The translations under genes were made by a program, and so were the position numbers. The notes below the pieces were generated by a model. The model was not told the origin of the DNA, made no database searches, and was given only the letters and a program-made list of their open reading frames with translations. Source: a bacterium (GTDB lineage Bacteria > UBA9089 > CG2-30-40-21 > SBAY01). From it: 20,361 nt of DNA. Every line of letters starts with the position of its first letter. Within the stretch, counting starts at the first letter, position 1. The stretch spans positions 1 to 20,361 of the forward strand of contig JBFLYA010000053.1 in NCBI GenBank assembly GCA_040757115.1. Reading direction: 5' to 3'. Positions 5,064 to 20,306 of the stretch are shown one piece after another.

Positions 5064-8000
5064 CTATATATCTTTCTGATAAGGGTCTGTGGTTACATCC
5101 AGTTTGAGGTTTTCAAGATAGAGGTTATACTTAAATAAAATATTCTTCACTGAATTTAGTTCTGCCTCAAGCGAAGCCTTTAATAATTCCTCTATCTCTT
5201 GTGCCCGAGAAGTATTAGGTCTTACAATACTTAGGAAGATGGTCTTTTTGTTAGGCTCAATCTTTATGTCTTTTACTATTTCGTGCTTATAATACTCCTC
5301 CACATCTTTCTTACTAATCTTTTTGTTTTTCCGGATATATTCAGGTGGAATACGGTCTTTATCTGCATCTAAGGCATCTGCCAATCTTAAGATAGCTGCT
5401 AATAATTGGAGTCTTACCTTATAGGAATTACCCGCAAATGTATACTGGGCATCTTGTAGCTCATCCAGGGATTCTTTCTTAGGATGGGCACGACAAATTA
5501 TGGCAATTTGATTAGCCATAGACTCATCAGAAAGTCCAATTTCTCTCCACTCCTTCATTATCTTCTCATAACTTCTCCTGTTATGTTCTTTTCGCGCTTT
5601 TTGCGCTGTTTCTTTATTTTTATAATCCTCACCATTTTCAGGGACAAGTCCAATATCGTGGAGATAGGAAGCTGCCTTAAGTAAGAAGTATTCATATTCA
5701 TTCAAGAGGTTTTTGTCTTTTACCCCGCACCCCGTAATGCCTCGCCCTTCAGGGCGGGGATGTAGGGGTGCAATTGAAACATCATTAAGAATGCCTCGTC
5801 CTTTAGGACGGGGTGCGGGGTTTACTATTTCATCCATTAATTCTTTGACTTTAAGTGAGTGGCTCATCCCATGGCGGTTAAAGGTGCCAAAGTAGTCACA
5901 GCTTGCAGGTAAGTATTCCAGTTCTTTTGCAGAATAGCGCTCTATATTTTGTTGGATTTCGGTTAATAAATTGAGTATTGAGTCTTTTGAGATGGCTTCC
6001 TGAGGGAGTATAATTCTGCTTTCGCCTGGCTCCTTCTCTACTAATTTCTTAAGGGATTCGTAGGCAGAATTTTTTACATTGTTGTCTTTATCCTTGAGTG
6101 CCTCAAGGAGTGCATTGATGACCTTATCATCTGCACGACCTAAATTGCCCAGTGCCTCGGCTGCATTACTACGCACATACCAGTCTTTATCCTTGAGTGC
6201 CTCAAGGAGTGCATTGATAACCTTATCATCTGCACAACCTAAGTTGCCCAGTGCCTCGGCTGCATTACTACGCACAAACTCGTGTTTATCCTCTATTGCC
6301 TTAAGGAGTGCATTGATGACTTCATCATCTGCATGACCTAATCTGCCCAGTGCCTGGGCTACATTACCACGCACATTCTCTCTTTCATCCTCCAGTGCCT
6401 CAAGGAGAGCATTAATGACTTTATCATCTGCACGACCTAAGTTGCCCAGTGCCTTGGCTGCATAAAGACGCACAAGCTTGTATTTACCCTTAAGTACCTC
6501 AAGGAGAGCATTAATGACTTTATCATCTGCATGACCTAATCTGCCCAGTGCCTCGGCTGCGTTCTCACGCACATACCCTTCTTCATCCTTAAGTGCCTTA
6601 AGGAGTGCATTGATGACCTTTTCATCTACATAACCTAATCTGCCCAGTACCTTGGCTGCATTACTACGCACATGCCATTCTTTTTTATCCTTGAGTTCCT
6701 TAAGGTATGCATTGATGAGCTTTTTATCTACACAACCTAATCTCCCCAGTGCCTCAGCTGCATGAAGACGCACATCCGGGTCTTCATCCTTAAGTGCTTC
6801 AAGGAGTGCATTGATGAGCTTTTTATCTACACAACCTAATCTGCCCAGTGCCTCGGCTGCATCACTATGCACATTCCAGGCTCCACCTTTATCCTTGAGT
6901 GCTTCAAGGATGGCGTTGATAACTTTCTCATTTGCATGACCTAAGTTGCCCAGTGCCTTGACTGCCTCACGACGCACATACCAATCTATATCCTTATCCT
7001 TGAGTACCTCAAGGAGAGCATTGATGACTTCATCGTCTGCATGACCTAAGTTGCCCAATGCCTTGACTGCATGAAAATGCACAAACAACGGGTTTCTATC
7101 CTTGAGTGCCTCAAGGAAATTGTTAATTATCGCATCTGCCTTCTTTGTTCCAACTAAAGAAGCAAATACCCTCTCAATCTCATCATAGAGAGGGTAAAAT
7201 TCTGGCTCCTTCCACAACTCCCAAAGGTCATCCAGTATCTTCTTTTCTAACGAGGAATCTATCTCAGGAATATCAGAGAGGCAAAGACCTGCCAAAAGTA
7301 GGGGTTGGTGGAAAACATCATAATAGAGTGGTTTTTGTTCTAAGATGAATTCAATAAAATCCTTTGGCTCTTTAAGCTTACCAGCAATAAGTCTTATTAC
7401 CTCTCTAAACCTTGGATTAAAGAGTATAGGCTCAAGAAGCAAAGCCGGCTCTTCTTTTTCCCTTACAATCCAGCAAGCGGCTAAATATTCCTGAAAGGTA
7501 AGGTGGAGGAAGATATATTGCCCTTCGCCAAGTGAACATAAAAGACCACTCTTTTCTCTAATCTCTTTTAATACATCATCGGCATTGTAATCCTCTTTCT
7601 TATTCATTAGAAAGGTTTTTATAATCTCCCTTAAATCAGCCTCTTCAAATATCTCTTTTTTCTCAAGGAAATAAGAGGCTATCTTTTCTAACACACTTTC
7701 TTTAATAGAAAGGGGAATCTTGGGTTCTCTCAAATTCAGCAAATTATGGACTGCCTTTTTATATAACTCAATCCGGCCAGCAGGTAGCTTGAGGTTTTGT
7801 CTGTTAAAGACAAAGCAGAGTATCTGTAAAAGCAATGGGTTCTTAGAAAGGGGAATCATCTGGGGTGTCTTCTCTAAGGCAGAGAGAAAGCTAGATTCAT
7901 CCTTAAGATAATCCTCTGCATAAGAGGAGATATTTTCTTTATTTAAAGGCATTACCTCATAATGTTGCCAGCCTGACAATTCATTATTGTATCCGGCAAT

Positions 8001-8744
8001 TCGGGTGGTTACTAAAAGAGGGCAGTTTCTATACTCCCCAGAGCTTGTGTTTTGCAAGGCTTGGATGATAGATTGCCTATTCTGGGTTACCTCATCCAAG
8101 CCATCACAAAGGATGATACATCTACCCTTCTTAAGCCAATCTTTTATTAAGGATTCAATCTCCTCTTCAAAACCGCTGTTTTTTAAGGCATATTTCGCAT
8201 AATACCCAGGAAGGGAATCTCCTTTATCTGCCCAATCCTTCAAATCTATCAATAGAGGAATCAAATCCTGTTTTATTTTACGCTCTCTCTTGTTGGTGAC
8301 TAAAGAATAGGCGATATAGTGAGTAAGGGTAGTCTTTCCTGAGCCTGGGTCTCCCTTGACTACAATCTTCTTATTTTGGATGGCTTTCCAGATGTCTACG
8401 ACCACTAAAGAATGTCTTTCGGAAGAAGAGTGTATCTCTCGCCATACCTTGAAATCTACATCCTCGCCTAATTCTTTAGATTCTAATAGCTCTCTCTTGG
8501 TAGGCTTTTCTTCTCTTTCTTGGCCTAATTGGAGGGGGATATAATTCTCCATCGTCAAGCTGATATTTTCATCAAGGCAAGGTATAGTCTTGTATTTATC
8601 CCTGATGAACTGGCAATATCTGGGGGTTAATTTTTCCATTCTTTTAGATGGTTTTTTATCTTCTTTGTGAATATGCACATCCCTACCTGCCTGAATAACC
8701 TCAATATTCTGACTATGGCTAATTTCTATCTTTTGCTTTTTCAT
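5064..8744 (-). CDS. NACHT-HEAT repeat-HD(CE-like) protein, probable NLR-like immune effector
   Basis: This is a large predicted STAND switch protein of 1226 aa. Order of parts: residues about 10-28 carry a short beta-type segment (NIEVIQAGRDVHIH) often seen at the N-terminus of bacterial NACHT proteins. The NACHT NTPase follows, with Walker A GDPGSGKTT near 131-139, Walker B IILCDGLDE near 210-218 and sensor LLVTTR near 243. About 11 HEAT repeats of 31-33 aa (EALGRLG-type helices) cover about 545-905. A C-terminal HD phosphohydrolase domain resembles the HD-CE type: HGMSHS near 966, LHDIG near 1028, then a downstream RAHP and LRLADALDADKDR. Known bacterial NACHT proteins sense phage and trigger effectors; here the HD domain would be the effector, which is inference. 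A 100-bp palindromic element is inserted in frame in the HD domain. I prefer the ATG at 8744, with TAAGG upstream, over the adjacent TTG. The stop is TAG. The gene starts 33 bp after an AAA/DUF4143 gene. Confidence 0.85.
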   Translation of the reverse strand: MKKQKIEISHSQNIEVIQAGRDVHIHKEDKKPSKRMEKLTPRYCQFIRDKYKTIPCLDENISLTMENYIPLQLGQEREEKPTKRELLESKELGEDVDFKVWREIHSSSERHSLVVVDIWKAIQNKKIVVKGDPGSGKTTLTHYIAYSLVTNKRERKIKQDLIPLLIDLKDWADKGDSLPGYYAKYALKNSGFEEEIESLIKDWLKKGRCIILCDGLDEVTQNRQSIIQALQNTSSGEYRNCPLLVTTRIAGYNNELSGWQHYEVMPLNKENISSYAEDYLKDESSFLSALEKTPQMIPLSKNPLLLQILCFVFNRQNLKLPAGRIELYKKAVHNLLNLREPKIPLSIKESVLEKIASYFLEKKEIFEEADLREIIKTFLMNKKEDYNADDVLKEIREKSGLLCSLGEGQYIFLHLTFQEYLAACWIVREKEEPALLLEPILFNPRFREVIRLIAGKLKEPKDFIEFILEQKPLYYDVFHQPLLLAGLCLSDIPEIDSSLEKKILDDLWELWKEPEFYPLYDEIERVFASLVGTKKADAIINNFLEALKDRNPLFVHFHAVKALGNLGHADDEVINALLEVLKDKDIDWYVRREAVKALGNLGHANEKVINAILEALKDKGGAWNVHSDAAEALGRLGCVDKKLINALLEALKDEDPDVRLHAAEALGRLGCVDKKLINAYLKELKDKKEWHVRSNAAKVLGRLGYVDEKVINALLKALKDEEGYVRENAAEALGRLGHADDKVINALLEVLKGKYKLVRLYAAKALGNLGRADDKVINALLEALEDERENVRGNVAQALGRLGHADDEVINALLKAIEDKHEFVRSNAAEALGNLGCADDKVINALLEALKDKDWYVRSNAAEALGNLGRADDKVINALLEALKDKDNNVKNSAYESLKKLVEKEPGESRIILPQEAISKDSILNLLTEIQQNIERYSAKELEYLPASCDYFGTFNRHGMSHSLKVKELMDEIVNPAPRPKGRGILNDVSIAPLHPRPEGRGITGCGVKDKNLLNEYEYFLLKAASYLHDIGLVPENGEDYKNKETAQKARKEHNRRSYEKIMKEWREIGLSDESMANQIAIICRAHPKKESLDELQDAQYTFAGNSYKVRLQLLAAILRLADALDADKDRIPPEYIRKNKKISKKDVEEYYKHEIVKDIKIEPNKKTIFLSIVRPNTSRAQEIEELLKASLEAELNSVKNILFKYNLYLENLKLDVTTDPYQKDI
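5722..5821. repeat. 100-bp palindromic element inserted in frame in the NACHT-HEAT-HD gene
   Basis: Perfect 14-bp inverted ends, ACCCCGCACCCCGT (5722-5735) and ACGGGGTGCGGGGT (5808-5821), enclose two near-identical 20-bp palindromic units (about 5740-5759 and 5794-5813). The unit cores are CGCCCT-TC-AGGGCG and CGTCCT-TT-AGGACG, so a base change on one arm is matched on the other. The host reading frame runs straight through and encodes PAPRPKGRGI and HPRPEGRGI, between the first His helix and the HD motif of the HD domain. High GC and Pro/Arg/Gly content contrast with the AT-rich gene around it. It resembles in outline the protein-coding palindromic elements described in Rickettsia, but it is not the same sequence as far as I can tell. 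Confidence 0.85.
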
Positions 8745-8777
8745 CAAACCTTACCCTTGGTAAGAAAATCATCAATC

Positions 8778-10046
8778 TTATCCCATCAACCATTTTGTAA
8801 GGGGAATAAGGTTAATCCAAAAACCTTTAAATTCTTCTTTTGCCTCTACATCCCAGGTAATTACAGTTAAGTTTTTGCAATTTAATCTTTCAGCTCCCAG
8901 AATTAAAGATTTAAACTCCCTTTCTTTTGTTTTAATCTCTTCTATTTTATAACAGACCTGGATTAACTCTTCTATCTTTGTCTTTTCTTTTAGAACAAAA
9001 TCTATCTCTTTCCCCCTTGCATCTTTGTAATAATAGAACTCAATCAATGGTCTTTCATTCTGTCTTCTTAATAGCTCTAAAAACACACAATTTTCCATTA
9101 ATCTTCCGATGTCTTCCTGGAATCGGACAACCTTTGAGATGCCTGTGTCGCAGAGATAGACCTTTTTCGGCCAGGCTTCTTTCTCATATATCTTTTCTGA
9201 ATACCTCAAGAGAAAGAATACACTTACTGAATCTTGAATCTTTTCGCAATAATCATATAAGGTATTTTTTCCAATCCTCTTTCCTTGTGATTTTAAGAAG
9301 CTAAAGATTTTATTTATGCTGATTTCACAAGAAAGATTTTGGGCAAAGAATGAAAGGAGGAATCTTGCCAGAGCGATATTTTTTAATTTATGCCTTTCCA
9401 CCAGGTCACGGAAAAGGATGAGTTCATAAAACTCTTTTAATATCCGCTCCTTCTCTTTTTCTTTAATTATCTCTGGGAAACCTCCAAATTCTAAATATCT
9501 TCGCAATTTACCCCTTATTTCTGCTCTTTCCTCCTTTGAAAGAGAGCCTACTAAAGAAATTCCTTCTGCTCTTAAAAATTCAGAAAAACTAAAAGGAAGA
9601 AGCAAATATCTGAATGTCCTTCCCCTTAAAGAGGTAGCAATTTCATAAGCCAGTAGTTTTGAAGAAGAGCCGGTAATAAAGATTTTGTATCTTTGGGTAT
9701 CCAGGATTTCTCTTACCGCAAGTTCCCAATTTTGAATATTTTGAATCTCATCAAAGAATAAATACTTTGGTTCTCTTGCGGTAAGTTCTTTATAAGTTCT
9801 TATTAAATCCCTTATTTCCTTGAAATTGACATCTGTTAATCTTGTATCTTCAAAGTTTAGATAAAGGGCTTCTTCTTTCTTGTCTTTCATTAACTGATAG
9901 AAGTAATATGTTTTTCCTGCCCTTCTTGGTCCGATGATAGAGATTATTCTTTCTGTTTCTGTTATCATTAGCTCCCTTTCTATCAAAGGCGGAATAGGTC
10001 TTTTGGTATATTCTAAGATGTAATCTTCAACCAACTCCCGATTCAT
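8778..10046 (-). CDS. AAA ATPase with DUF4143 C-terminal domain (AAA_14 family)
   Basis: This 422-aa ATPase belongs to the common AAA_14 plus DUF4143 family (COG1373-like), whose function is not settled. Walker A GPRRAGKT is at residues 39-46, Walker B YLFFDEIQNI at 95-104, and the sensor strand IFITGSSSKL near 122-131. The C-terminal DUF4143 region is nuclease-like in look: FYYYKDARGKEIDFVLKE followed by ELIQVCYKI. The length is complete. I start at the ATG at 10046 because AAGGAGAG lies about 7 nt before it; an ATG 21 bp upstream precedes that site. It is the first gene of a two-gene unit with the NACHT-HEAT gene 33 bp downstream, driven by a probable promoter at 10100-10128 with a palindrome over the -35 box. 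A paralogue sits next to the HNH-STAND gene in this window. Confidence 0.88.
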   Translation of the reverse strand: MNRELVEDYILEYTKRPIPPLIERELMITETERIISIIGPRRAGKTYYFYQLMKDKKEEALYLNFEDTRLTDVNFKEIRDLIRTYKELTAREPKYLFFDEIQNIQNWELAVREILDTQRYKIFITGSSSKLLAYEIATSLRGRTFRYLLLPFSFSEFLRAEGISLVGSLSKEERAEIRGKLRRYLEFGGFPEIIKEKEKERILKEFYELILFRDLVERHKLKNIALARFLLSFFAQNLSCEISINKIFSFLKSQGKRIGKNTLYDYCEKIQDSVSVFFLLRYSEKIYEKEAWPKKVYLCDTGISKVVRFQEDIGRLMENCVFLELLRRQNERPLIEFYYYKDARGKEIDFVLKEKTKIEELIQVCYKIEEIKTKEREFKSLILGAERLNCKNLTVITWDVEAKEEFKGFWINLIPLTKWLMG

Positions 10047-10099
10047 AGGCTCTCTCCTTAAAGACAATTTTGTATATTTTTTTCTTTCCTGTTGAGATA

Positions 10100-10129
10100 A
10101 TTTTAACAGAACTTGACAAAAAAGTCAAG
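10100..10129 (-). promoter_or_regulatory. Probable promoter and operator of the AAA/DUF4143-NACHT unit
   Basis: On the minus strand, TTGACT (-35, 10123-10128) and TAAAAT (-10, 10100-10105) are 17 bp apart. A palindrome CTTGAC-N6-GTCAAG (10112-10129) covers the -35 box and part of the spacer, a good place for a repressor. The leader to the ATG at 10046 would be about 45 nt. Confidence 0.55.
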
Positions 10130-10138
10130 GATTTTTCT

Positions 10139-10540
10139 AACCGTTCAGGCTATATATCAAAAGTGTAAGAAAGGGGATAAGGAGATAAGAGTGATATGGA
10201 GATAAGATAATAGAATATAGATTGAAATTTATAGAAATAGGTAGAAATTGATTGTGGAAAACAACAAATTTCCATAAATTTCTATTAGTTTCTATGTAAC
10301 TGCTCATCATCAAGTGGCAATCTGCACCTTACAGCTTCAACAGCCACATAATATCTAAAGAACCGTTTTTTATGGCGAAGGGCCACATGGACAACAAACT
10401 GTACTTGCCTTTCCAATCATTTCTGCCAAGGAGGGCAGCCTGTATTCTCCAGAAAGTCTATTAATTTCAATTTTTTTAATAATATCTCCCTATCTCCTTA
10501 ATCTCCACATCTCCTTTTGTTACACCACCTGAACGCTTAC
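10139..10540. repeat. About 400-bp element with long imperfect terminal inverted repeats
   Basis: This fills most of the gene-free stretch 10047-10771. The left end AACCGTTCAGG (10139-10149) matches the inverse of the right end CCTGAACG (10528-10535). The similarity continues inward imperfectly for about 80 bp on both sides: GGAGAT tracts, then ATAATA, then ATTGAAATT and ATAG. A further CCTGAACGGTTA at 10651-10662 marks a third copy of the end sequence, as if elements were nested. Between 10541 and 10682 are a CACGAATTTCACGAATT-type repeat and an 8-bp hairpin GTGTCTGG / CCAGACAC. Decayed coding sequence lies inside the element at about 10285-10460. No transposase or intact gene is present. 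Confidence 0.55.
10285..10460 (-). pseudogene. Decayed coding fragment inside the inverted-repeat element
   Basis: Two overlapping minus-strand frames read as protein-like but are broken. Upstream is a frame giving LSGEYRLPSLAEMIGKAS, which ends at a stop at 10370-10372. Another frame follows from 10416 to a TAA at 10285, giving FVVHVALRHKKRFFRYYVAV and then EAVRCRLPLDDEQLHRN. The overlap suggests one frameshift in a former small gene. I do not recognise the family. The call rests only on the protein-like composition of the two frames. Confidence 0.3.
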
Positions 10541-10682
10541 AAGTCCAGATATAGGAAAGTATAACATACCACGAATTTCACGAATTGGACGAATAAAAAT
10601 GTGTCTAAGTGTCTGGTAGTCTGTAACCCAGACACCCAGATATCAGCCTACCTGAACGGTTACTCATTTTGACATTAGCTTG

Positions 10683-10751
10683 GTAGCCCAGGATTCTATC
10701 CTGGGTTGTCCATCCCCCATTTCTATCCGCCAACATAGAATGTTGGGCTAC
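10683..10751. repeat. 69-bp element made of two inverted, covarying hairpins
   Basis: The ends GTAGCCC (10683-10689) and GGGCTAC (10745-10751) are inverse copies. Each end continues into a hairpin: CCCAGGAT-TCT-ATCCTGGG (10687-10705), and CCAACAT-AGA-ATGTTGG (10730-10746). Read in the same direction the two are GTAGCCCA-nn-ATTCTAT-nn-TGG, and the nn positions differ in matched pairs that preserve the stem. It lies just downstream of the HNH-STAND stop codon. It lacks a T-run and is not a standard terminator. Confidence 0.7.
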
Positions 10752-10771
10752 ACTTTTTCTATTCCCACAAA

Positions 10772-13270
10772 TCAACACGGATTCAGATTTCGCAGTAGTT
10801 GCTCAGCCTCAACCCTGGGCCAGTGGTAGTGCATCTGGCTGGCTTTTTGGTAAGTGGATTGGGCGAAAATTTTGGTCTGGTCAAGATCATTTAACCCCAG
10901 ATATGCCTTAGCTAAGATTAGCTCTGCATCGGGTTCGTAGAGTAAAAAGCCTGTGCGAGCACATAGCTTCAGGACTTGGTTTGCCTGAGAGATAGCCTCT
11001 TTATATCTTTTCATATCCAACCACAACCTGCTCAACTCAAGCAAGGTTTCGATTTCAAGAAAAGGCATGCCAACCTTTCTTGCAATCTCAAGGGCTTGCT
11101 GAAGATGGACCTCAGCATCCTTGCGGTTTCCCTTTATCCTTTCAATGGTACCAAGGCAGCGGTGACATTGCGATATCTGAGCCGGCCAATTATTCCTCTG
11201 GCAGACCTCAAGGTTTGCTTTGGTAAGTTCAAAAGCCTCATCAATCTGCTTGATTGAGATTAGAAAATCAGCATAGAAAATTCCCCATCCACTGTAAAGC
11301 CGATACCCACTGAGCTTTCCTTCAAGCTCATCTGCCTGCCAAAACCCCTTTTCTGCTTCCTCATTCTTGCCCGCAAGATGGAGTATCCAGGCAAGATAGG
11401 CTTTTGAAACCACAATATACTGCTCAGAACCGGCCTTCTCTGCTGCATCATGTGCCTTTTTGGCACTCTCATCTGCCTCCTTGAGCCTGCCTACTCGAAA
11501 CTGGAGGTCAGCCAAGTTTCGATAACCTGTAGAGGCGTTTTTCCAGTCTTTGTCTTCGATTTGCATATTTGTCTTTCGAACGAAAAGCTCCTCTGCCTCT
11601 TTTGGCCGGCCTGTAGCAAGAAGAGATAGTCCGGCTTCATTGAACAGCCAGCCTTGGTCGCTCTTCTTGCTTACCAGCGGCATCTGTGAAAGGTTTCCGT
11701 CCGGAAAGAAAGTTCTGGCAAGGAATAGATTGGTTTCCCAGGCGCCAAGTTTATGGATAATAAATAGTTCCTCCCTTCTGTATATTTTCTCCCAATAGAC
11801 ATCTTTCCGCACCTCATCATAAAACCTGGCAGAACATCCATGATATACCTGCTCAAACAATGGCTGCATTTCTTCTAAGGTTTCTGGCTTATCTTTTGCT
11901 ATTTTTCCAAAGTATTCATAGATTGCTTTGTGGGTTAGCTTCTTTTCCTTTTCATCAAATATCGCCTCAAAGTAGCCCTTAATCAAAGGATGGGTAGTAT
12001 AGGTATTATCAGAGCCTTTGGTAATAAGCCTTCTTTGGCAAAGGTTATCTACCATTCTCTGGAAATAAAAATCTACCCTGGTTTGGAATATCTCCTTAAA
12101 CTCCCTTTCCGAGACTGCACCCCTAAACAGGGAGAATATCTTCATAAATCTCCTTTGTTCTTCATTTAATTGCTTATCATACCACCGCAGGATTCTATGT
12201 GCCTTACCCCCTGCCTCCTGGTCTGAATAGAAGGGCGGTATTTCCTTTGCTCTCTTAATATCACCCCCAGGGCCTAAATAATTTGCCAGGAGAACAAGGC
12301 TCAGGGTATGGCCCTTAAATTCTTTCCAGATGTCATCTATCTCATCCTCTGTTCCTCTTACCCCAATTCTTTGAAACAATAGCCGGGTATCCTCTTTTGA
12401 TAATTCCTCTATCTCAAGCCTTTGATAACTTGGGTAATTCTTGATGTCAGTCAAAGGGAACCTTGTAGTTATCAGGCACAAGCCTCTAAAATCTGCATCA
12501 GCAATGTATTTGAGTAAGTCAGTAAACTCTGGGTGTTGCAGATTACCAAATTCTTCGCCGGTTTGTGATTTTTGCATCTCCTCCAGACCATCCAGGATAA
12601 TGAGATATTCCCTTTCCAAAAGAAGCTCTTTTATTTTATCGGTCTTCTGCCAGGAGGTCTTGTAGTCATCAAGCTTAAATCTATCCTGGGAGAGATAGGT
12701 AAATAATGCGCTAAGAAAACGCTCAAGATAAGGGTTGCGATAAAACCCCCACCAGAATATGCCATCAGGCTGGATGTTGTTTTCTTTCAGGGAATCAAAC
12801 CATTTTCTTACCAATGCCGATTTTCCTACCCCACCCCAGCCGACTAATGCCCCAATCTTTACATCCGGTGATTTATACCATTTTGTAATGGTTGTAAGCA
12901 TCTTTTTCCTACCCACAAAATTCGGCTCGGGTGGGATTTGATTGTGCAGGCTGAGTAGGAGTATTCCAGGCGCTTTCCTTATCCGTTCTTCAAGTGGCAG
13001 CCCCTGAGCACAAAGATTAACCCATCTCTCCTTATACATTTTAAGCTGTCTGGGTGTATACATCGTTCGTATCCGATGTATTTTTGCATGGCAGGTTGGG
13101 CAGACGACCATAAGGTTCTCTTCGGTGTTGGGTCCTTTTTCACTTATGGGCACAATGTGGTGAATATCGGTAAGATTCTCATGTTGAGGACAGAGACAGC
13201 AGCGGTGCATTGCCTCAACCGATAGCCTATCTTTTATATCTTCAGGAATAGCTTTGCGTTGGTGTGCCAT
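10772..13270 (-). CDS. HNH endonuclease-STAND NTPase-TPR protein, probable antiphage NLR-like protein
   Basis: This 832-aa protein fuses a nuclease to a signalling ATPase. Residues about 20-66 are an HNH domain with zinc-binding pairs CCLC (24-27) and CPTC (57-60), the IHHI core (36-39), the ENL segment (51-53) and a final HAKIH. An NB-ARC/AP-ATPase-like P-loop domain follows the NFVGRKK entry: Walker A VGWGGVGKSAL at 143-153, Walker B LIILDGLEE near 223-231, sensor CLITTR near 265-270. A winged-helix-like region follows, and then about 560-830 is helical with TPR-like pairs (LLATGRPKEAEELF, LAGKNEEAEKGF, RIKGNRKDAEVHLQQALEIARK). The expected logic is that TPRs sense a trigger, the NTPase oligomerises, and the HNH cuts DNA. 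This follows known Avs/NLR-like systems but is inferred here. The ATG at 13270 starts 9 bp after the DUF4143 frame ends, with AGGAG some 15-18 nt upstream. The last codons and stop overlap a repeat related to ATCCGTGTTAATC. Confidence 0.87.
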   Translation of the reverse strand: MAHQRKAIPEDIKDRLSVEAMHRCCLCPQHENLTDIHHIVPISEKGPNTEENLMVVCPTCHAKIHRIRTMYTPRQLKMYKERWVNLCAQGLPLEERIRKAPGILLLSLHNQIPPEPNFVGRKKMLTTITKWYKSPDVKIGALVGWGGVGKSALVRKWFDSLKENNIQPDGIFWWGFYRNPYLERFLSALFTYLSQDRFKLDDYKTSWQKTDKIKELLLEREYLIILDGLEEMQKSQTGEEFGNLQHPEFTDLLKYIADADFRGLCLITTRFPLTDIKNYPSYQRLEIEELSKEDTRLLFQRIGVRGTEDEIDDIWKEFKGHTLSLVLLANYLGPGGDIKRAKEIPPFYSDQEAGGKAHRILRWYDKQLNEEQRRFMKIFSLFRGAVSEREFKEIFQTRVDFYFQRMVDNLCQRRLITKGSDNTYTTHPLIKGYFEAIFDEKEKKLTHKAIYEYFGKIAKDKPETLEEMQPLFEQVYHGCSARFYDEVRKDVYWEKIYRREELFIIHKLGAWETNLFLARTFFPDGNLSQMPLVSKKSDQGWLFNEAGLSLLATGRPKEAEELFVRKTNMQIEDKDWKNASTGYRNLADLQFRVGRLKEADESAKKAHDAAEKAGSEQYIVVSKAYLAWILHLAGKNEEAEKGFWQADELEGKLSGYRLYSGWGIFYADFLISIKQIDEAFELTKANLEVCQRNNWPAQISQCHRCLGTIERIKGNRKDAEVHLQQALEIARKVGMPFLEIETLLELSRLWLDMKRYKEAISQANQVLKLCARTGFLLYEPDAELILAKAYLGLNDLDQTKIFAQSTYQKASQMHYHWPRVEAEQLLRNLNPC

Positions 13271-13279
13271 CTTATATCA

Positions 13280-14593
13280 TTAACTCTCCTCTAAAAGCCA
13301 TTTCCATAATGGAATATAGTTTATTTTTTTATCCTCAACATCCTCTTCTGCCTCATAATCTTCTGTGATAACGAAGCCTTGTTTGAGATTCAACTCCTTC
13401 ATAGCCTTAAGCAGTGCTGAAACCTCCCTCTTTCTTGTCCTGGGGCTGTTCACATCCCAGCAGACCTAAATGAGCTCTTTTGGCTTAAAATCCTCCTTCA
13501 CCACAAAATCCACTTCCCTGTGATGCACATCCTTCCAGTAATAAAGCTCTAAGTTAGGCTTTGCACATCTCCTTCTTTCTAACTCCAAAAAGACAAGATT
13601 CTCTGCAAGCCTGCCTAAGTTTTCTGAGAATCTGAAGCCGATGGTGTTGGCAAGACCTATATCTATGGCATAGACCTTCCTGGGGCTCTTCTCCTGCTCT
13701 TTAACCCTGAAGGAGAACCTTTTGAGGAAATACAGGATATAGGCCTCTCTCAAATAACCAGAGAATCTCTCAATGGTGTCTGCTGATACTTTTAAGAATT
13801 TTTCTAAGGAACTAAAGGTTGTAAGGGAAGATATGTTGCTCAGGTAGAACCTGGTGAGGCTCATCAGCTCCTCTCCCTTCCTTATCCTGAACCTCTTTAT
13901 GATATCCCTGTTTAATATATCCTCAAAAAGCTTAAGCAGAATCTCTCTTCTTTCTTTGGCAAGGACCACCTCAGGGAATGAGCCAGACTCTAAGCACTCC
14001 CTTTGTAATCTCTTTATGTTGGTCTCTTGATTTATGAGGTCAAGTCTGTCTTTGAGATTGATACCGCAAAATGTAAGATACTCTCTGAAGGAGAGAGGAA
14101 ATAATGTGAGGTCCAGATGCCTTCCAGTGAGTAGAGTAGCCAATTCTGTACTCAGCAGTTTTGCGTTTGAGCCTGATATGATAAGTTGTGCTTTATTCAA
14201 CTCATGAACTGTTCTCACCCACTTTTCCCATTCCTTTGCCTCCTGAACCTCATCTAAGAAGAGATAGGGTCTCTGCTTTGGGTTTAGGAACTCCAAATAG
14301 ACTTCGTATATCTTCTGCAAGTTTTTGGCATCCAACCCAGTGAATCTTGGGTCTTCAAGGTTGACAAATAGTATCCTGTTCTTCTCCACACCCTCTTTGA
14401 TCAAGGACTTGGCCAATTGCCTCATCATAAAAGACTTTCCACTCCTCCTTGCACCAGTAATCACGATGATATGGGAGGTGGTGAGGAAGCCTTTGAGCCT
14501 GTTGAGGTAGTGAGGCCTTTCGTATCCTGTGGCTAAATCCTTCTTCCAGAAGTTCCAGTCTTCTAATACCCTGATTATCTCATTTTTCTCCAT
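13280..14593 (-). pseudogene. AAA/DUF4143 ATPase with one premature in-frame amber codon
   Basis: The frame encodes a 437-aa member of the AAA_14/DUF4143 family if the TAG at 13466-13468 is ignored; otherwise it ends at 375 aa. Walker A GARRSGKS (47-54) and Walker B LFLDEVQE (111-118) are intact, as is the LYYWKDVHHREVDFVVKE core of the C-terminal domain. The TAG stands exactly where the paralogue in this window has Gln, in ELI-Q-VC. The 61 codons after it remain open and family-like, ending WKWLLEES. So one CAG-to-TAG change explains it. TAG is a normal stop elsewhere in this window (metF, NACHT-HEAT, AAA-TPR), so genetic recoding is unlikely. A truncated but partly active ATPase, readthrough, or a sequencing error remain possible. 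The promoter is a perfect consensus. The full frame ends 9 bp before the HNH-STAND start. Confidence 0.8.
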
Positions 14594-15180: not shown

Positions 15181-17915
15181 TATTTTTTTATCTTTTCTCT
15201 TGCCTCTTTGAGCCAATCTTTGCCGTATTTAGCCTCAAACAATTTTTCTATTAGCTTTCTTTCTACCGCCTCAAGCCGTTCAAGTCTTTTTAGTGCTTTC
15301 AATGGCTCGTCTCTTTCTAAATATCCTCCTATTTCATTTGCCACAAAGAAGATGTTAAGCCTCATCCAGAGCTTTTCCCAATTTAGCTCCTTAAGCATAT
15401 CTTTCAATATAATAGCCTCTTCATATCGGCTTTTAGAAAACAGGTCTTTAAGAAGAAGGATGAATGCCTCATCTATGTCATCGGAAGGTATCTCCATAGC
15501 CCTTATCTCTCCTAATCTCTTCTTTACTAAACCATAATTCTTACTCTCAAGTTGAAACTCTATGGAATAGAAAGATTTCTGAGGTTTCAGCCTTATTCCT
15601 TCTTTATAAGCCGCAAAGCCTTCTTCATAACGACCAAGCTTATCAAGTATCTCTCCTTTGTTATACCACGCTACAGCATCATCAGGCTTTAATTCTATTG
15701 CCTTCTCAAAGGCGGCAAGTGCTTCTTCATAACGACCAAGCTTATCAAGTATACATCCTTTGTTATACCACGCTATAGCCTCATCAGGCTCTAATTCTAT
15801 TGCCTTCTCATAGGCGGCAAGTGCTTCTTCATAACGACCAAGTTCACCAAGTGCATATCCTTTCCTCCACCACGCCAAGGCATCATCAGGTTTTAATTCT
15901 ATTGCCTTCTCAATTGCTACAAGTGCTTCTTCATAACGACCAAGTTCACCAAGTGCATATCCTTTCCTACGCCACGCCAAGACATCATCAGGCTTTAATT
16001 CTATTGCCTTTTCAAAGGCTACAAGTGCTTCTTCATAACGACCAAGTTCACCAAGTATCCATCCTTTGTTATACCACATCCAGGCACAATCAGACTTTAA
16101 TTTTATTGCCTTCTCAATTGCTACAAATGCTTCTTCATAACGACCAAGATTACCAAGTATACATCCCTTGTTATTCCACGCGAAGGCATCATCAGGCTTT
16201 AATTCTATTGCCTTCTCATAGGCTGCAAGTTCTTCTTCATAACGACCAAGTTTACCAAGTATCCATCCTTTGTTATTCCACGCTTCAGCCATATCAGGTT
16301 TTAATTCTATTGCCTTCTCAGTTGCTACCAATGCTTCTTCATAACGACCAAGTTCACCAAGTGCATATCCTTTCCCACGCCACGCCCAGGCATCATCAGG
16401 CTCTAATTCTATTGCCTTCTCATAGGCGGTAAGTGCTTCTTCATAACGACCAAGTGTACCAAGTTCAACTCCCTTATCAACCCATTCCTTAGCCAAATCA
16501 GGTCTTTCCTTATCTCGCTCAATTTCATAAGAAAGAGGTTCAAGAAATGGCTTTTCAATAATAAACCTCTCCTTTAATCTGATTGCTTGCTCATAAAGCC
16601 CTACCAGTTCACCTGGCACCTTTTTCTTAAGCCCAATTAATTCATCATGACTAAAGATATGGGCAAATAAAGGGATGACAAATGACCATTTCTCTTGCCA
16701 GGAGCCACCCTTTCTCCATTTATACCAGATAGAAAAAAGTGGTTCAGAGAGGATATAGAATCTTTCCTTCCCTGTGCTTTCTGTAGCACTCCTTAGCCAA
16801 CCCTTCTTTATCAGCCGCAAGATGTAAGTGGAAACCTCGGCTAAACTAAAGGAGGTCTTCTCTTCAATCTCTTTAGGTTGCAAGGATTGCTCGGATTCGG
16901 CAAATAACTCTATTATCTTTCTTTCCTTTGGAGGTAAAATCCACAAAGCCTCTCTGTAGATTAAGGTGAGCTTCTCAAATATCTCCTGCATAAATCCAAA
17001 AGAAGACCGCCATCTAATCTCTGCGGATTTTTCATCATCTATCCTTCCACATTCAGAGAGAACAATCTCAAAGAGGGGAAAGATCATTCTTGGCAGTCCT
17101 CCTGAAAGATAAGAGATTGCCTGGAAGATTCTTATTCTTCTCTCACCCTGGGGAGAACGAAGATATTTAATTAGCCGGGGAGACTCTTTGGCATAAAACT
17201 CTTGAATCCTTGAGATGAGCTCAAAAGACTCACTATCGCTGAACCTACTAATCTCATGTTTTTTAAAATAGCCATAAATAGAAGAATCCCTTTTGCCAAG
17301 AATTTCAATAAAGGTTGCTGATGTAGCCAATAGTTTAAGGCTCTTTGAACGGGGCAGGAGAGAAAGGAAGTTATCTACCTCGTTTTTTTCAAAGGAGTCA
17401 ATCAACCGATCAAGATTCTCTACCATTATTATCGTTCTTTTCCTGAATCTATCTCTTATCTCCTCAAATACACTTTTTGCTCGATTGAATCGCTTATCTT
17501 TATTCTCACCCTCTTCAACCCATTTAATCTTACTATTGACAAATTCGTGAATTTTTTCATCTTGTATCGTCCTTCCGGGTATATTGATAATCACCTCAAG
17601 GGCTCTTTGGAGTATTTCCGCCACATTTCTTGCGCCAAAGAGCTCCTCTGGAAGCAGGATAGGGAAATAGTGTTTTGAGAGGGATGTATCTTCTTTTATC
17701 CGATGAAAGATTATAGAAAGGAGGAAGGTTTTTCCTATCCCGGCTGGACCATAAAAGAGGTGGGACTGAAGGTATCTATCCGACTCTATCTCCTCTTTTA
17801 ATTCTTTGATTATATCCTCTACATAATCCTTTCTTTCTCTTCCTACAAAGATAGACTCTAAATCTTCGGCTCGTTCAACCGCAGGATGAAAGCGACTTAT
17901 CAAGATCTCGCTCAT
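15180..17915 (-). CDS. AAA/STAND-like ATPase with nine C-terminal TPRs
   Basis: This 911-aa protein is the third gene of a tight operon. Residues 1-320 form an Orc/Cdc6- or archaeal-ATPase-like P-loop domain: entry FVGRERKDYV near 23-32, Walker A GPAGIGKT at 56-63, Walker B TIIMVENLDR at 161-170, and an LLATSATF sensor strand. A winged-helix segment follows near 330-400 (LQPKEIEEKTSFSLAEVSTY, then ILRLIKKGWL). Residues about 475-780 hold nine 34-aa TPRs with near-identical consensus (AWYNKG, LGRYEEALAAYEKAIELKPDD). A helical C-terminal region of about 130 aa is not recognised. The ATG overlaps the TGA of the upstream AAA gene (ATGA), so translation is coupled and the two ATPases probably work together. 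TPRs normally bind protein ligands, so a sensor role is inferred. The stop is TAG at the edge of a repeat element. Confidence 0.85.
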   Translation of the reverse strand: MSEILISRFHPAVERAEDLESIFVGRERKDYVEDIIKELKEEIESDRYLQSHLFYGPAGIGKTFLLSIIFHRIKEDTSLSKHYFPILLPEELFGARNVAEILQRALEVIINIPGRTIQDEKIHEFVNSKIKWVEEGENKDKRFNRAKSVFEEIRDRFRKRTIIMVENLDRLIDSFEKNEVDNFLSLLPRSKSLKLLATSATFIEILGKRDSSIYGYFKKHEISRFSDSESFELISRIQEFYAKESPRLIKYLRSPQGERRIRIFQAISYLSGGLPRMIFPLFEIVLSECGRIDDEKSAEIRWRSSFGFMQEIFEKLTLIYREALWILPPKERKIIELFAESEQSLQPKEIEEKTSFSLAEVSTYILRLIKKGWLRSATESTGKERFYILSEPLFSIWYKWRKGGSWQEKWSFVIPLFAHIFSHDELIGLKKKVPGELVGLYEQAIRLKERFIIEKPFLEPLSYEIERDKERPDLAKEWVDKGVELGTLGRYEEALTAYEKAIELEPDDAWAWRGKGYALGELGRYEEALVATEKAIELKPDMAEAWNNKGWILGKLGRYEEELAAYEKAIELKPDDAFAWNNKGCILGNLGRYEEAFVAIEKAIKLKSDCAWMWYNKGWILGELGRYEEALVAFEKAIELKPDDVLAWRRKGYALGELGRYEEALVAIEKAIELKPDDALAWWRKGYALGELGRYEEALAAYEKAIELEPDEAIAWYNKGCILDKLGRYEEALAAFEKAIELKPDDAVAWYNKGEILDKLGRYEEGFAAYKEGIRLKPQKSFYSIEFQLESKNYGLVKKRLGEIRAMEIPSDDIDEAFILLLKDLFSKSRYEEAIILKDMLKELNWEKLWMRLNIFFVANEIGGYLERDEPLKALKRLERLEAVERKLIEKLFEAKYGKDWLKEAREKIKK

Positions 17916-19243
17916 TTTGCAGGAAACCTCCTCCAGAAGTCCCTTAATAATTTTGATTTAAAAGAGTATTTGCCATTTTTCTCTTCTATCAAGAGGTCAT
18001 CTATAAGCCATTGAATCATATTTTCAAACTCCTCTTGTTCAAGACCAGTCTTTTCTTTAAAAATCTTCTTTGCCATCCCTTTTTCTATCTCTTCTTTAGC
18101 CATTTCAGAAAGCATAGCATAACCTGCCGATGACAATCTTCCAGGATACCTTCTGGGTAAATCCTGAAAGTCTCTTAAAAGATTCCAGCCCTCTTTACCT
18201 ATTAACCTTTCATATATCTCTTCAGGGCATACATCTTTTTTCTCTCTATATACCTCATTCCACACATAGACAAAGATATGAATAAAGTAAGGCACATAGG
18301 TTTCAAGGAGATTACATATTTCTTCAATCTCTCCCTTTTTTGGGATTATCTGTGAATTGTAAGCAAGTTCTTCAAGGAGTAGATTTGCATCCTGTCTTTC
18401 AAGCAAAGGAAGATCAATCTTTTCAAAATTAGAAAGGGTTTGCCCAGCAATTCTATCCTCTGCTTCACTACTTGCCGTAATGAATCTTATATTAGAAAGA
18501 TTAAAGAACCGGTCAAAATTTAGAGGTTCATTATTATTTTTAAGATTTCTTAAGAATTCAGCAAACTCGTCAACCAGGAGTAAGTAGTGTTTATCTTGAG
18601 GGAAAAGAGAAGGTAGTATACTCTCTAACCCCTCTTTTGATGTCTTTTCAATTTCTTCCCTTTGTTTTTGACGTTCAAGGGAATTGCCCTTTTTTATTTC
18701 GTATCCAATTGCCCCTAAGAATGCTCTCACATCTTGCAGATTTCTTGCCTGGATGAAGAGGGGTTGATAAGGTTGGGGTGGTCTTTCAAAGATGGCATTA
18801 AGTATTGAGGTCTTTCCATAACACCTTGGAGCACGGAGAGAAATATGCCTTTCTTTAAGCAATTCCAATATTTCCAAAATCAAATTTTCCCTGCCTACAA
18901 GTTCATCAAAGGGAAGAAGGGTTCTTAGGCGAATAAGGAAGGTAGGAATTCTATTCTTTGTAAAGAGCCATTCAAGATGCCTTCTAAATCTCTCTTCATT
19001 AAAACTTCCATCTTTATAGGCATATTCTACAATATCTTTTACCTCTTGAGCCTCCTTACTGGTAGATGAGGTGGTAGTAAGTTCTAAAGAATGCTTTTGG
19101 GCAAGTTCCTTAGCCGTATTAAGGAGAAGAAAGTAAAGGTCTAAAATTTTTGTGTCGTTGACTTCCTTTCTTTCATTTATAATTCCCAAAGAGAATCCTT
19201 TGTCTTTGTTTGAGAATTCAAGAAGATATTTATAAGTTTTCAT
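17912..19243 (-). CDS. AAA ATPase with altered Walker A and C-terminal winged helix
   Basis: This 443-aa protein lies between the RelA/SpoT-like gene (14-bp overlap) and the AAA-TPR gene (4-bp ATGA overlap). Residues 1-100 are an unrecognised N-terminal domain. An ATPase domain follows, with the LVGREN entry at 115-120, a P-loop APRCYGKTS at 138-146 and Walker B HYLLLVDEFAEF at 219-230. The first P-loop Gly is replaced by Ala, although the essential Lys-Thr remains, so nucleotide binding is likely and hydrolysis uncertain. An FITASSEAEDR sensor strand follows. The last 75 residues look like a winged helix (KKIFKEKTGLEQEEFENMIQ). It resembles archaeal-type AAA ATPases found in two-gene pairs. 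Inferred role: adaptor or switch that links the TPR sensor to the nucleotidyltransferase. No effector domain of its own is visible. Confidence 0.8.
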   Translation of the reverse strand: MKTYKYLLEFSNKDKGFSLGIINERKEVNDTKILDLYFLLLNTAKELAQKHSLELTTTSSTSKEAQEVKDIVEYAYKDGSFNEERFRRHLEWLFTKNRIPTFLIRLRTLLPFDELVGRENLILEILELLKERHISLRAPRCYGKTSILNAIFERPPQPYQPLFIQARNLQDVRAFLGAIGYEIKKGNSLERQKQREEIEKTSKEGLESILPSLFPQDKHYLLLVDEFAEFLRNLKNNNEPLNFDRFFNLSNIRFITASSEAEDRIAGQTLSNFEKIDLPLLERQDANLLLEELAYNSQIIPKKGEIEEICNLLETYVPYFIHIFVYVWNEVYREKKDVCPEEIYERLIGKEGWNLLRDFQDLPRRYPGRLSSAGYAMLSEMAKEEIEKGMAKKIFKEKTGLEQEEFENMIQWLIDDLLIEEKNGKYSFKSKLLRDFWRRFPAK

Positions 19244-19949
19244 GTTGGTTTTGTTCCTTTATGTACTTCTTCCAGGTCTTATCAGCAAATTCGTCAGCAA
19301 TCATCAGTAATCCGCTTAAGGCATGAAAACGGTCCTGGATGGATTTAATCTCTGGGTGGTTTACATTTTTCCTTATTTCTTCATAAATTATGTGCTGTTT
19401 AATATCCCACGCCTCTTGCAGTGAAGTCATAATCTGGACCTCAAGATAATACACCTTTTCATCCCTTTTCATCTTAAAATACTCATGGATAGCCCGATGT
19501 GCCCCTTTTTCAAAACTCAAACCTGCTTCAATTCTTTTATCTTTTCTCTTATCTTCACAGTATTCAAAAGGGACAGGGTCAAAATCAGACTTATTCTTTA
19601 ACTTTTCATCTATTTTCTCCATATCCGAGTTATAATTACATAGAATACGGCAGCGGGCAATATCGTCAAGCTTTAAGATACAATCTTCGATAAATCCTTT
19701 TAGATTTGATGCAGAAGGCTTTTTCTTTATAGTTTTATTAATCTTTTCAACAATAGAGGAAGAGGATTTAAGCCTATTTTTATTCTCTATATCTATCCAA
19801 TAGGCTTTTCTTCCATATTGAAAAAAGATTTTGTCATTCTCTTGGGTTATAAAATCAAAAAGTTTTTTTATAAAATTGTCATAGAAGATTTCCCAGGTAC
19901 TTCTTAAATCCTGAATAATTTTAATAGTGTCGTTGTTTAGTTCAGGCAT
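19230..19949 (-). CDS. RelA/SpoT-like nucleotidyltransferase domain protein (candidate alarmone-type effector)
   Basis: This 239-aa protein is a stand-alone RelA/SpoT synthetase-type domain with no HD hydrolase, TGS or ACT domains, the size class of small alarmone synthetases. Family landmarks: KSSSSIVEKI (61-70) matches the start of the fold. LDDIARCRI (94-102) carries the metal-binding Asp. GAHRAIHEYF (149-158) corresponds to the GYRSLH motif. LEVQIMT (169-175) holds the catalytic-type Glu. W181 and H186 fit the following helix. The substrate motif is divergent (Ala-His for Tyr-Arg), so the product may not be (p)ppGpp. Toxic synthetases of this type pyrophosphorylate nucleotides or tRNA. 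As first gene of an operon with two AAA ATPases it is the obvious effector, which is inference. A ribosome site AGGAAA precedes the ATG; the consensus promoter lies only about 25 bp upstream. Confidence 0.82.
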   Translation of the reverse strand: MPELNNDTIKIIQDLRSTWEIFYDNFIKKLFDFITQENDKIFFQYGRKAYWIDIENKNRLKSSSSIVEKINKTIKKKPSASNLKGFIEDCILKLDDIARCRILCNYNSDMEKIDEKLKNKSDFDPVPFEYCEDKRKDKRIEAGLSFEKGAHRAIHEYFKMKRDEKVYYLEVQIMTSLQEAWDIKQHIIYEEIRKNVNHPEIKSIQDRFHALSGLLMIADEFADKTWKKYIKEQNQHENL

Positions 19950-19971: not shown

Positions 19972-20000
19972 ATTATACCACAGTATTAAATTTTTGTCAA
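19972..20000 (-). promoter_or_regulatory. Perfect consensus sigma70 promoter of the RelA/SpoT-AAA-TPR operon
   Basis: On the minus strand TTGACA (19995-20000) and TATAAT (19972-19977) are both perfect, with exactly 17 bp between them. The predicted start is near 19965, giving a leader of about 15 nt with an AGGAAA ribosome site before the ATG at 19949. A promoter this strong in front of a likely toxic operon implies tight repression, and repeated palindromes lie directly upstream. Confidence 0.85.
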
Positions 20001-20058
20001 CTAAAATTTTAATCAACAAATTTGTTAGTCAACAAATTTGTTAGTTAACAAATTTGTT
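19999..20058. promoter_or_regulatory. Array of 16-bp-spaced palindromes, probable operator
   Basis: Three perfect copies of the palindrome AACAAATTTGTT lie at 20015-20026, 20031-20042 and 20047-20058, each 16 bp from the next. Flanking bases AGT and TAA are also shared. A decayed fourth copy, AACTAAAATTTT, falls in register at 19999-20010 and overlaps the -35 box of the operon promoter. Regular spacing of about 1.5 helical turns suits cooperative binding by a dimeric regulator. The regulator is not identified here; no small DNA-binding protein is adjacent. Confidence 0.8.
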
Positions 20059-20103
20059 AAGAATGAACTGTTCTCCCCTCCCTCTTGATAGCCTTTCAAA
20101 AAG

Positions 20104-20238: not shown

Positions 20239-20306
20239 CCGTTCAGCCACAGAGGCACAGAGTTCACAGAGAATTAGAGAAATTAGCCACAAATGGACAC
20301 GAATTA
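20235..20306. repeat. Dispersed repeat beginning GTAACCGTTCAGCCAC
   Basis: The segment starts with GTAACCGTTCAGCCAC (20235-20250), near-identical to the ends of the element at 14893-15180. It continues with CACAGAG-type and CCACAAATGGACACGAATTAA sequence, like the interior of that element. The rest of the window (20307-20361) holds nothing I recognise. Confidence 0.55.

Follow-up and report, generated by a model that had tools for sequence, protein, structure and literature searches.

An iterated palindromic array is conserved before, and specific to, a pair of adjacent genes here termed g2 and g3, and it overlaps the promoter. In both gene products, a winged helix comes after a P-loop AAA core. 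Judged from comparative analysis of the DNA and the encoded proteins, the array probably serves as the autoregulatory operator of this conserved two-ATPase module, bound by the pair, which would thereby block its own promoter. Gene pairs for archaeal-type and STAND ATPases are widespread and mostly uncharacterised, and a common operator provides a handle on their binding targets and their switching, and helps to locate further members.

The array and promoter in the window

The window, the whole 20,361-nucleotide stretch of bacterial DNA analysed here, contains the following features.

20047-20058, no strand assigned: operator unit 1, exact copy of AACAAATTTGTT; extended form TAACAAATTTGTTA at 20046-20059
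20031-20042, no strand assigned: operator unit 2, exact copy of AACAAATTTGTT
20015-20026, no strand assigned: operator unit 3, exact copy of AACAAATTTGTT
19999-20010, no strand assigned: decayed unit 4, AACTAAAATTTT, in register, matching AACAAATTTGTT at 9 of 12 positions
19995-20000, minus strand: -35 box TTGACA, read from the sequence
19972-19977, minus strand: -10 box TATAAT, read from the sequence, after a 17-bp spacer
19230-19949, minus strand: g1, RelA/SpoT-domain protein (small alarmone synthetase-like), 239 aa, Pfam PF04607 at 2.9e-7
17912-19243, minus strand: g2, AAA/STAND-type ATPase with C-terminal winged helix, 443 aa
15180-17915, minus strand: g3, AAA/STAND ATPase with MarR-like winged helix and TPR, 911 aa
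16710-16967, minus strand: winged helix of g3, residues 317-402, candidate operator-binding domain

Exact copies of the palindrome follow one another at strict 16-bp steps, upstream of a consensus sigma-70 promoter (TTGACA-17-TATAAT, minus strand) and abutting its -35 box, whose first two bases are covered by the decayed fourth unit. This promoter serves g1, which starts with an ATG at 19949. The initial annotation had described three exact copies and a decayed copy in register at the -35 box, and all four were found again at the positions listed. Because the array lies upstream of the -35 box, it is not transcribed from the window promoter, which speaks against an RNA hairpin, and that reading was dropped.

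An array with a 16-bp period has two dyads per period. The dyad TTGTTGNNCAACAA was at first favoured as the true center, since TTGTGCAA forms the common core in some operons, and was later dropped; the AT-centered dyad is the better unit because the CAA-N8-TTG spacing does not vary, whereas the junction can be 1 or 2 nt long.

A palindrome of this kind is unremarkable when alone, with 2.7 occurrences expected per window at up to two mismatches. The 4.3-Mb genome of the window has four other copies of AACAAATTTGTT (L004-L007), and no array surrounds these single copies. One of them (L004:1501-1512, G000:C73) stands in a GGTAACAAATTTGTTACC-like context just after the promoter-like sequence TTGACA-17-TAACAT, and is possibly the site of a separate regulator. 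The window also carries, at 20246-20290, a dispersed CACAGAGGCACAGAG-like repeat that recurs near other promoters of the same genome (L004, L007, L016).

Proteins encoded by the operon

Reading frames overlap by 14 bp between g1 and g2 and by 4 bp between g2 and g3, so g1-g2-g3 form one operon. The RelA_SpoT domain of g1 scores 31.2 bits, above the curated Pfam cut-off of 27, and its relatives of solved structure are YwaC (profile match 4e-16), YjbM, and FaRel2. The last of these, the comparison relevant to ToxSAS toxins, is a weak profile match (0.0025), and no antitoxin of a known family was seen at the operon.

Walker A is conserved in both ATPases. The window's g2 has no Pfam match of its own; in its family, ATPase_2 is matched by 22 of 46 members. 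The predicted model of g2 (pLDDT 93) finds SSO1545 and PABY2304 as its best Foldseek matches, as profile searches do. For g3, the predicted model covers residues 1-440 (pLDDT 88) and aligns with PABY2304 (PDB 2qen; Z 23.0, rmsd 3.4, 328 residues), SSO1545 (PDB 2fna; Z 21.9, rmsd 3.6, 313 residues), and Aeropyrum ORC2 (Z 20.6, rmsd 4.2, 343 residues), and it also matches NLR/CED-4 ATPases. On these predicted structures, g2 and g3 belong with the STAND and archaeal ATPase_2-like NTPases.

Conservation of the array at g2-g3 loci

A first survey covered g1 homologs in other genomes plus two paralogs in the same genome, and iterated dyads appeared at every promoter for which upstream sequence was available. 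A first scan of genome contigs with a single g2 protein as query returned no match, and a homolog scan of viral contigs found none; a search with a g2 profile gave 67 loci in named genomes and further loci besides. Promoter regions were scored for pairs of the unit YAACANNNNTGTTR at 15 or 16 bp, with a threshold of at least 15 of 18.

Arrays of YAACA-N4-TGTTR units with a 15/16-bp period were found at the promoters of 65 of 76 testable g2-family loci, which are related by descent and not phylogenetically independent. The same score was reached by 2 of 1355 windows of the same length elsewhere on those contigs and by 0 of 15 distant AAA loci; some of the counted loci had also served to derive the motif, and controls were scored identically. 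The initial annotation had named absence of the array from homologous operons as grounds for refutation, and the array is present there. Array-bearing loci come from many bacterial phyla and from methanogenic and ANME archaea, many of the source organisms being metagenome-assembled genomes with uncertain names. Spacing between paired units peaks at 16 bp (54 loci), with 8 loci at 15 bp and 35 at 32 bp, the last representing a third copy.

Eleven loci fall below the threshold. Six of these have a close variant, either spelled with TTGTGCAA or CAATAAA or weak in one unit. Another three (L088, L094, L098) have a CGTT/AACG version with a 17-bp period. In the clade of these three, the array again lies upstream of g2, and g3 carries a different recognition helix (VRNYL).

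The array accompanies the pair and not g1. It occurs in 13 of 17 loci with g1 and in 52 of 59 without it, archaeal loci included, and g3 comes after g2 wherever downstream sequence suffices. Retention of the array in loci that lack g1 means that it belongs to the g2-g3 pair, and the RelA/SpoT protein is ruled out as its binder.

A protein search later added four plasmid loci, which serve as an out-of-sample set. The Methylomonas plasmid locus scores over the threshold, at 15.5, and the Segatella plasmid locus scores 13 with a clear 16-bp period. On two Moraxella plasmids (L150, L151), g2-g3 follow other iterated dyads, of AACTATAAAATTATAGTT type, at steps of about 27 bp. From these four loci, an iterated operator before g2-g3 seems to be general, and its spelling less so.

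Specificity of the array across genomes

When up to three mismatches are allowed, the two-unit pattern occurs three times in the window's genome, each time before a g1-g2-g3 operon, and each of the three operons has its own operator spelling. The array is therefore not a general repeat, the initial annotation having raised a genome-wide palindrome search as a check on this point, and the palindrome and array scans together rule out an ordinary genomic repeat. In the phylum of the window there are six arrays, five at the operon and one orphan. The orphan (L032:1501-1530, G013:C531) lies at a promoter-like sequence; a UPF0175/PIN toxin-antitoxin-like pair follows about 180 bp downstream, and none of g1-g3 is nearby.

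The strict two-unit pattern at 15/16 bp was found in 6 of 386 genomes. Four of these have it at g2 loci (window, G014, G130, G267), so that a short DNA pattern by itself found g2 loci among these genomes; in the other two, the match falls inside unrelated ORFs, by chance. Among 20 genomes with g2 loci, 8 have a strict match, in all 8 at the g2 locus. Over the 406 genomes scanned, the strict pattern is thus confined to g2 loci except for the two matches in unrelated ORFs. Reversed-pattern controls gave 0 matches in both scans. Unlike the lone palindrome, the array is remarkable. A chance origin is ruled out by these figures (6 of 386 genomes against a reversed control of 0) together with those for homologous loci (65 of 76 against 2 of 1355).

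The candidate binding protein

The initial annotation had proposed one of the operon's own two winged-helix ATPases as a candidate regulator, a hypothesis that is well supported. An operon product does fit, since the array follows g2-g3 even where g1 is missing, and the choice between the two can be narrowed to g3. The winged helix of g3 is of the MarR/IclR/TrmB type: MarR_2 is matched by 31 of 55 members, with HTH_24, TrmB, IclR, and ArsR among the other Pfam matches, and its profile matches the solved repressors MJ223, ZitR, AdcR, HosA, and SmtB. The window's own copy is weakly basic (+3) and falls below the Pfam HTH models. Mean net charge is +6.4 for the winged helix of g3 versus -1.4 for that of g2.

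Because g2 and g3 always occur together, comparative data cannot tell them apart; the contrast between a basic MarR-like domain in g3 and an acidic one in g2 points to g3 as the candidate binder. Most likely, then, the array is bound by the pair itself, through the basic MarR-type winged helix of g3. A less likely reading makes g2 the main binder of the same operator, or requires a g2-g3 heteromer, with the g3 winged helix insufficient alone. The pair is obligate, and g2 has a C-terminal winged helix of its own and resembles SSO1545, PABY2304, and Orc1/Cdc6, all as such a reading would have it, but that winged helix is acidic on average and none of 46 g2 proteins matches a Pfam HTH family.

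Position of the array on promoters

The array touches the edge of the -35 box in the window and in G014. It lies in the spacer between -35 and -10, with a unit junction forming the -10 box, in L051, L046, L076, L096, and L100, and over the start region in L022, L025, L023, and L043. The unit junction of archaeal loci is TTATATAA, which looks TATA-like. The array overlays the core promoter, so it likely acts in repression, and steric repression accounts better than activation for a constant element whose place on the core promoter shifts.

MalT is a STAND transcription factor that acts as an activator. IniR, a second STAND transcription activator, combines an ATPase, a sensor, and a DNA-binding domain (PMC5760070). 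The array might by analogy be an activator-binding or assembly site and not a repression operator, and its position upstream of and against the -35 box in the window and in G014 would allow this. Such a role is nevertheless unlikely, given that units cover the -10 or start region in most bacterial homologs and that the window promoter is already consensus.

Control by a host-encoded global regulator, binding the arrays from outside the operon, is very unlikely. The G013 orphan, with no g2-g3, would suit it, as would the single palindromes elsewhere in the genome, one of them near promoter-like sequence. Against it, archaea and many bacterial phyla with pair-linked arrays are unlikely to share one such regulator, arrays are found almost nowhere else in the searched genomes, and the three paralogous operons of a single genome differ in operator spelling. 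Still less plausible is a role like that of replication or partition sites, in which the array would nucleate a DNA-bound ATPase complex and affect transcription only secondarily: g3 resembles Orc1/Cdc6 and SSO1545/PABY2304, and iterated dyads recall Orc1/Cdc6 boxes or ParR iterons, but the loci are chromosomal or contig-internal, each operon has a single array that invariably lies at the promoter, and no replication or partition genes were seen.

Proposed mechanism

For the identity of the binder, cooperativity, repression, and signal-driven release, we infer the following scheme, in which the array acts as the operator of the g2-g3 module, joined here to the RelA/SpoT-like enzyme g1. Either by itself or in a g2-g3 complex, g3 would bind the palindromic units with its MarR-like winged helix. 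The AAA/STAND domains would let several copies assemble on adjacent units about 1.5 helical turns apart, and the assembled g3 or g2-g3 complex would block the core promoter. Release of the DNA, and with it expression of the operon, would then follow a change of ATPase state that is sensed by way of the C-terminal TPR or variable region.

A broader proposal is offered tentatively. Paired STAND/Orc-like ATPases across domains of life may form their own transcription switch on a 15/16-bp iterated operator, whose junction would supply a TATA-like element in archaea and the -10 box in bacteria; an NLR-like sensor module, in some cases joined by an alarmone-type synthetase, would stay silent until the ATPase state changes. 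An NLR-like prokaryotic ATPase may here be a sequence-specific repressor. A single operator design is kept in bacteria and archaea over quite different promoters.

Comparison with characterized systems

The archaeal ATPase_2 proteins SSO1545 (2fna) and PABY2304 (2qen) have the AAA-winged-helix architecture in common with g2 and g3, and they are the best structural match of g3. Here, in contrast, two such ATPases are paired, and the winged helix of g3 is MarR-like and usually accompanied by TPR. No operator array for that family is described in the literature searched. MalT and IniR are alike in linking ATPase, sensor, and DNA-binding domain to control of transcription, but theirs is a C-terminal LuxR-type or SdiA-like DNA-binding domain, whereas in the present system the winged helix comes straight after the ATPase; they activate, and the site here is the operon's own promoter, where repression is more likely.

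The sites of ZitR and AdcR are TTAAC..GTTAA-like palindromes. Both regulators match the g3 winged helix profile, and their sites look close in sequence to the unit junction here, which is a lead. Unlike them, the present system has two to four units in a fixed 15/16-bp array and a binding domain carried within an ATPase. In the operons of AbiEi and Rv2827c, a protein encoded by the operon binds several inverted repeats at that operon's promoter (PMC7319586). Autoregulated toxin-antitoxin and defence operons of that type resemble the present one in such repeats, but here there is no antitoxin family, a large ATPase is the candidate repressor, and conservation of the operator extends across domains of life. 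We found no published description of a 15/16-bp array before g2-g3 in the literature searched.

Neighborhood of the module

PADLOC gave no match to the window's g2, gave weak matches only (to mads_8, PDC-S27, and PDC-S01) for 46 g2 proteins, and has no model for the g2-g3 pair. Conflict-type genes stand beside the module both in the window and on a Moraxella plasmid. In the window, the gene beyond g3 begins 587 bp on, and at that distance four further conflict-type genes adjoin the operon (5064-14593): two AAA_14/DUF4143 ATPases (PADLOC PDC-S01), an HNH-NB-ARC-TPR protein, and a NACHT-HEAT-HD-CE protein. On the Moraxella plasmid (L151), g2-g3 lie close to a QatD anti-phage gene.
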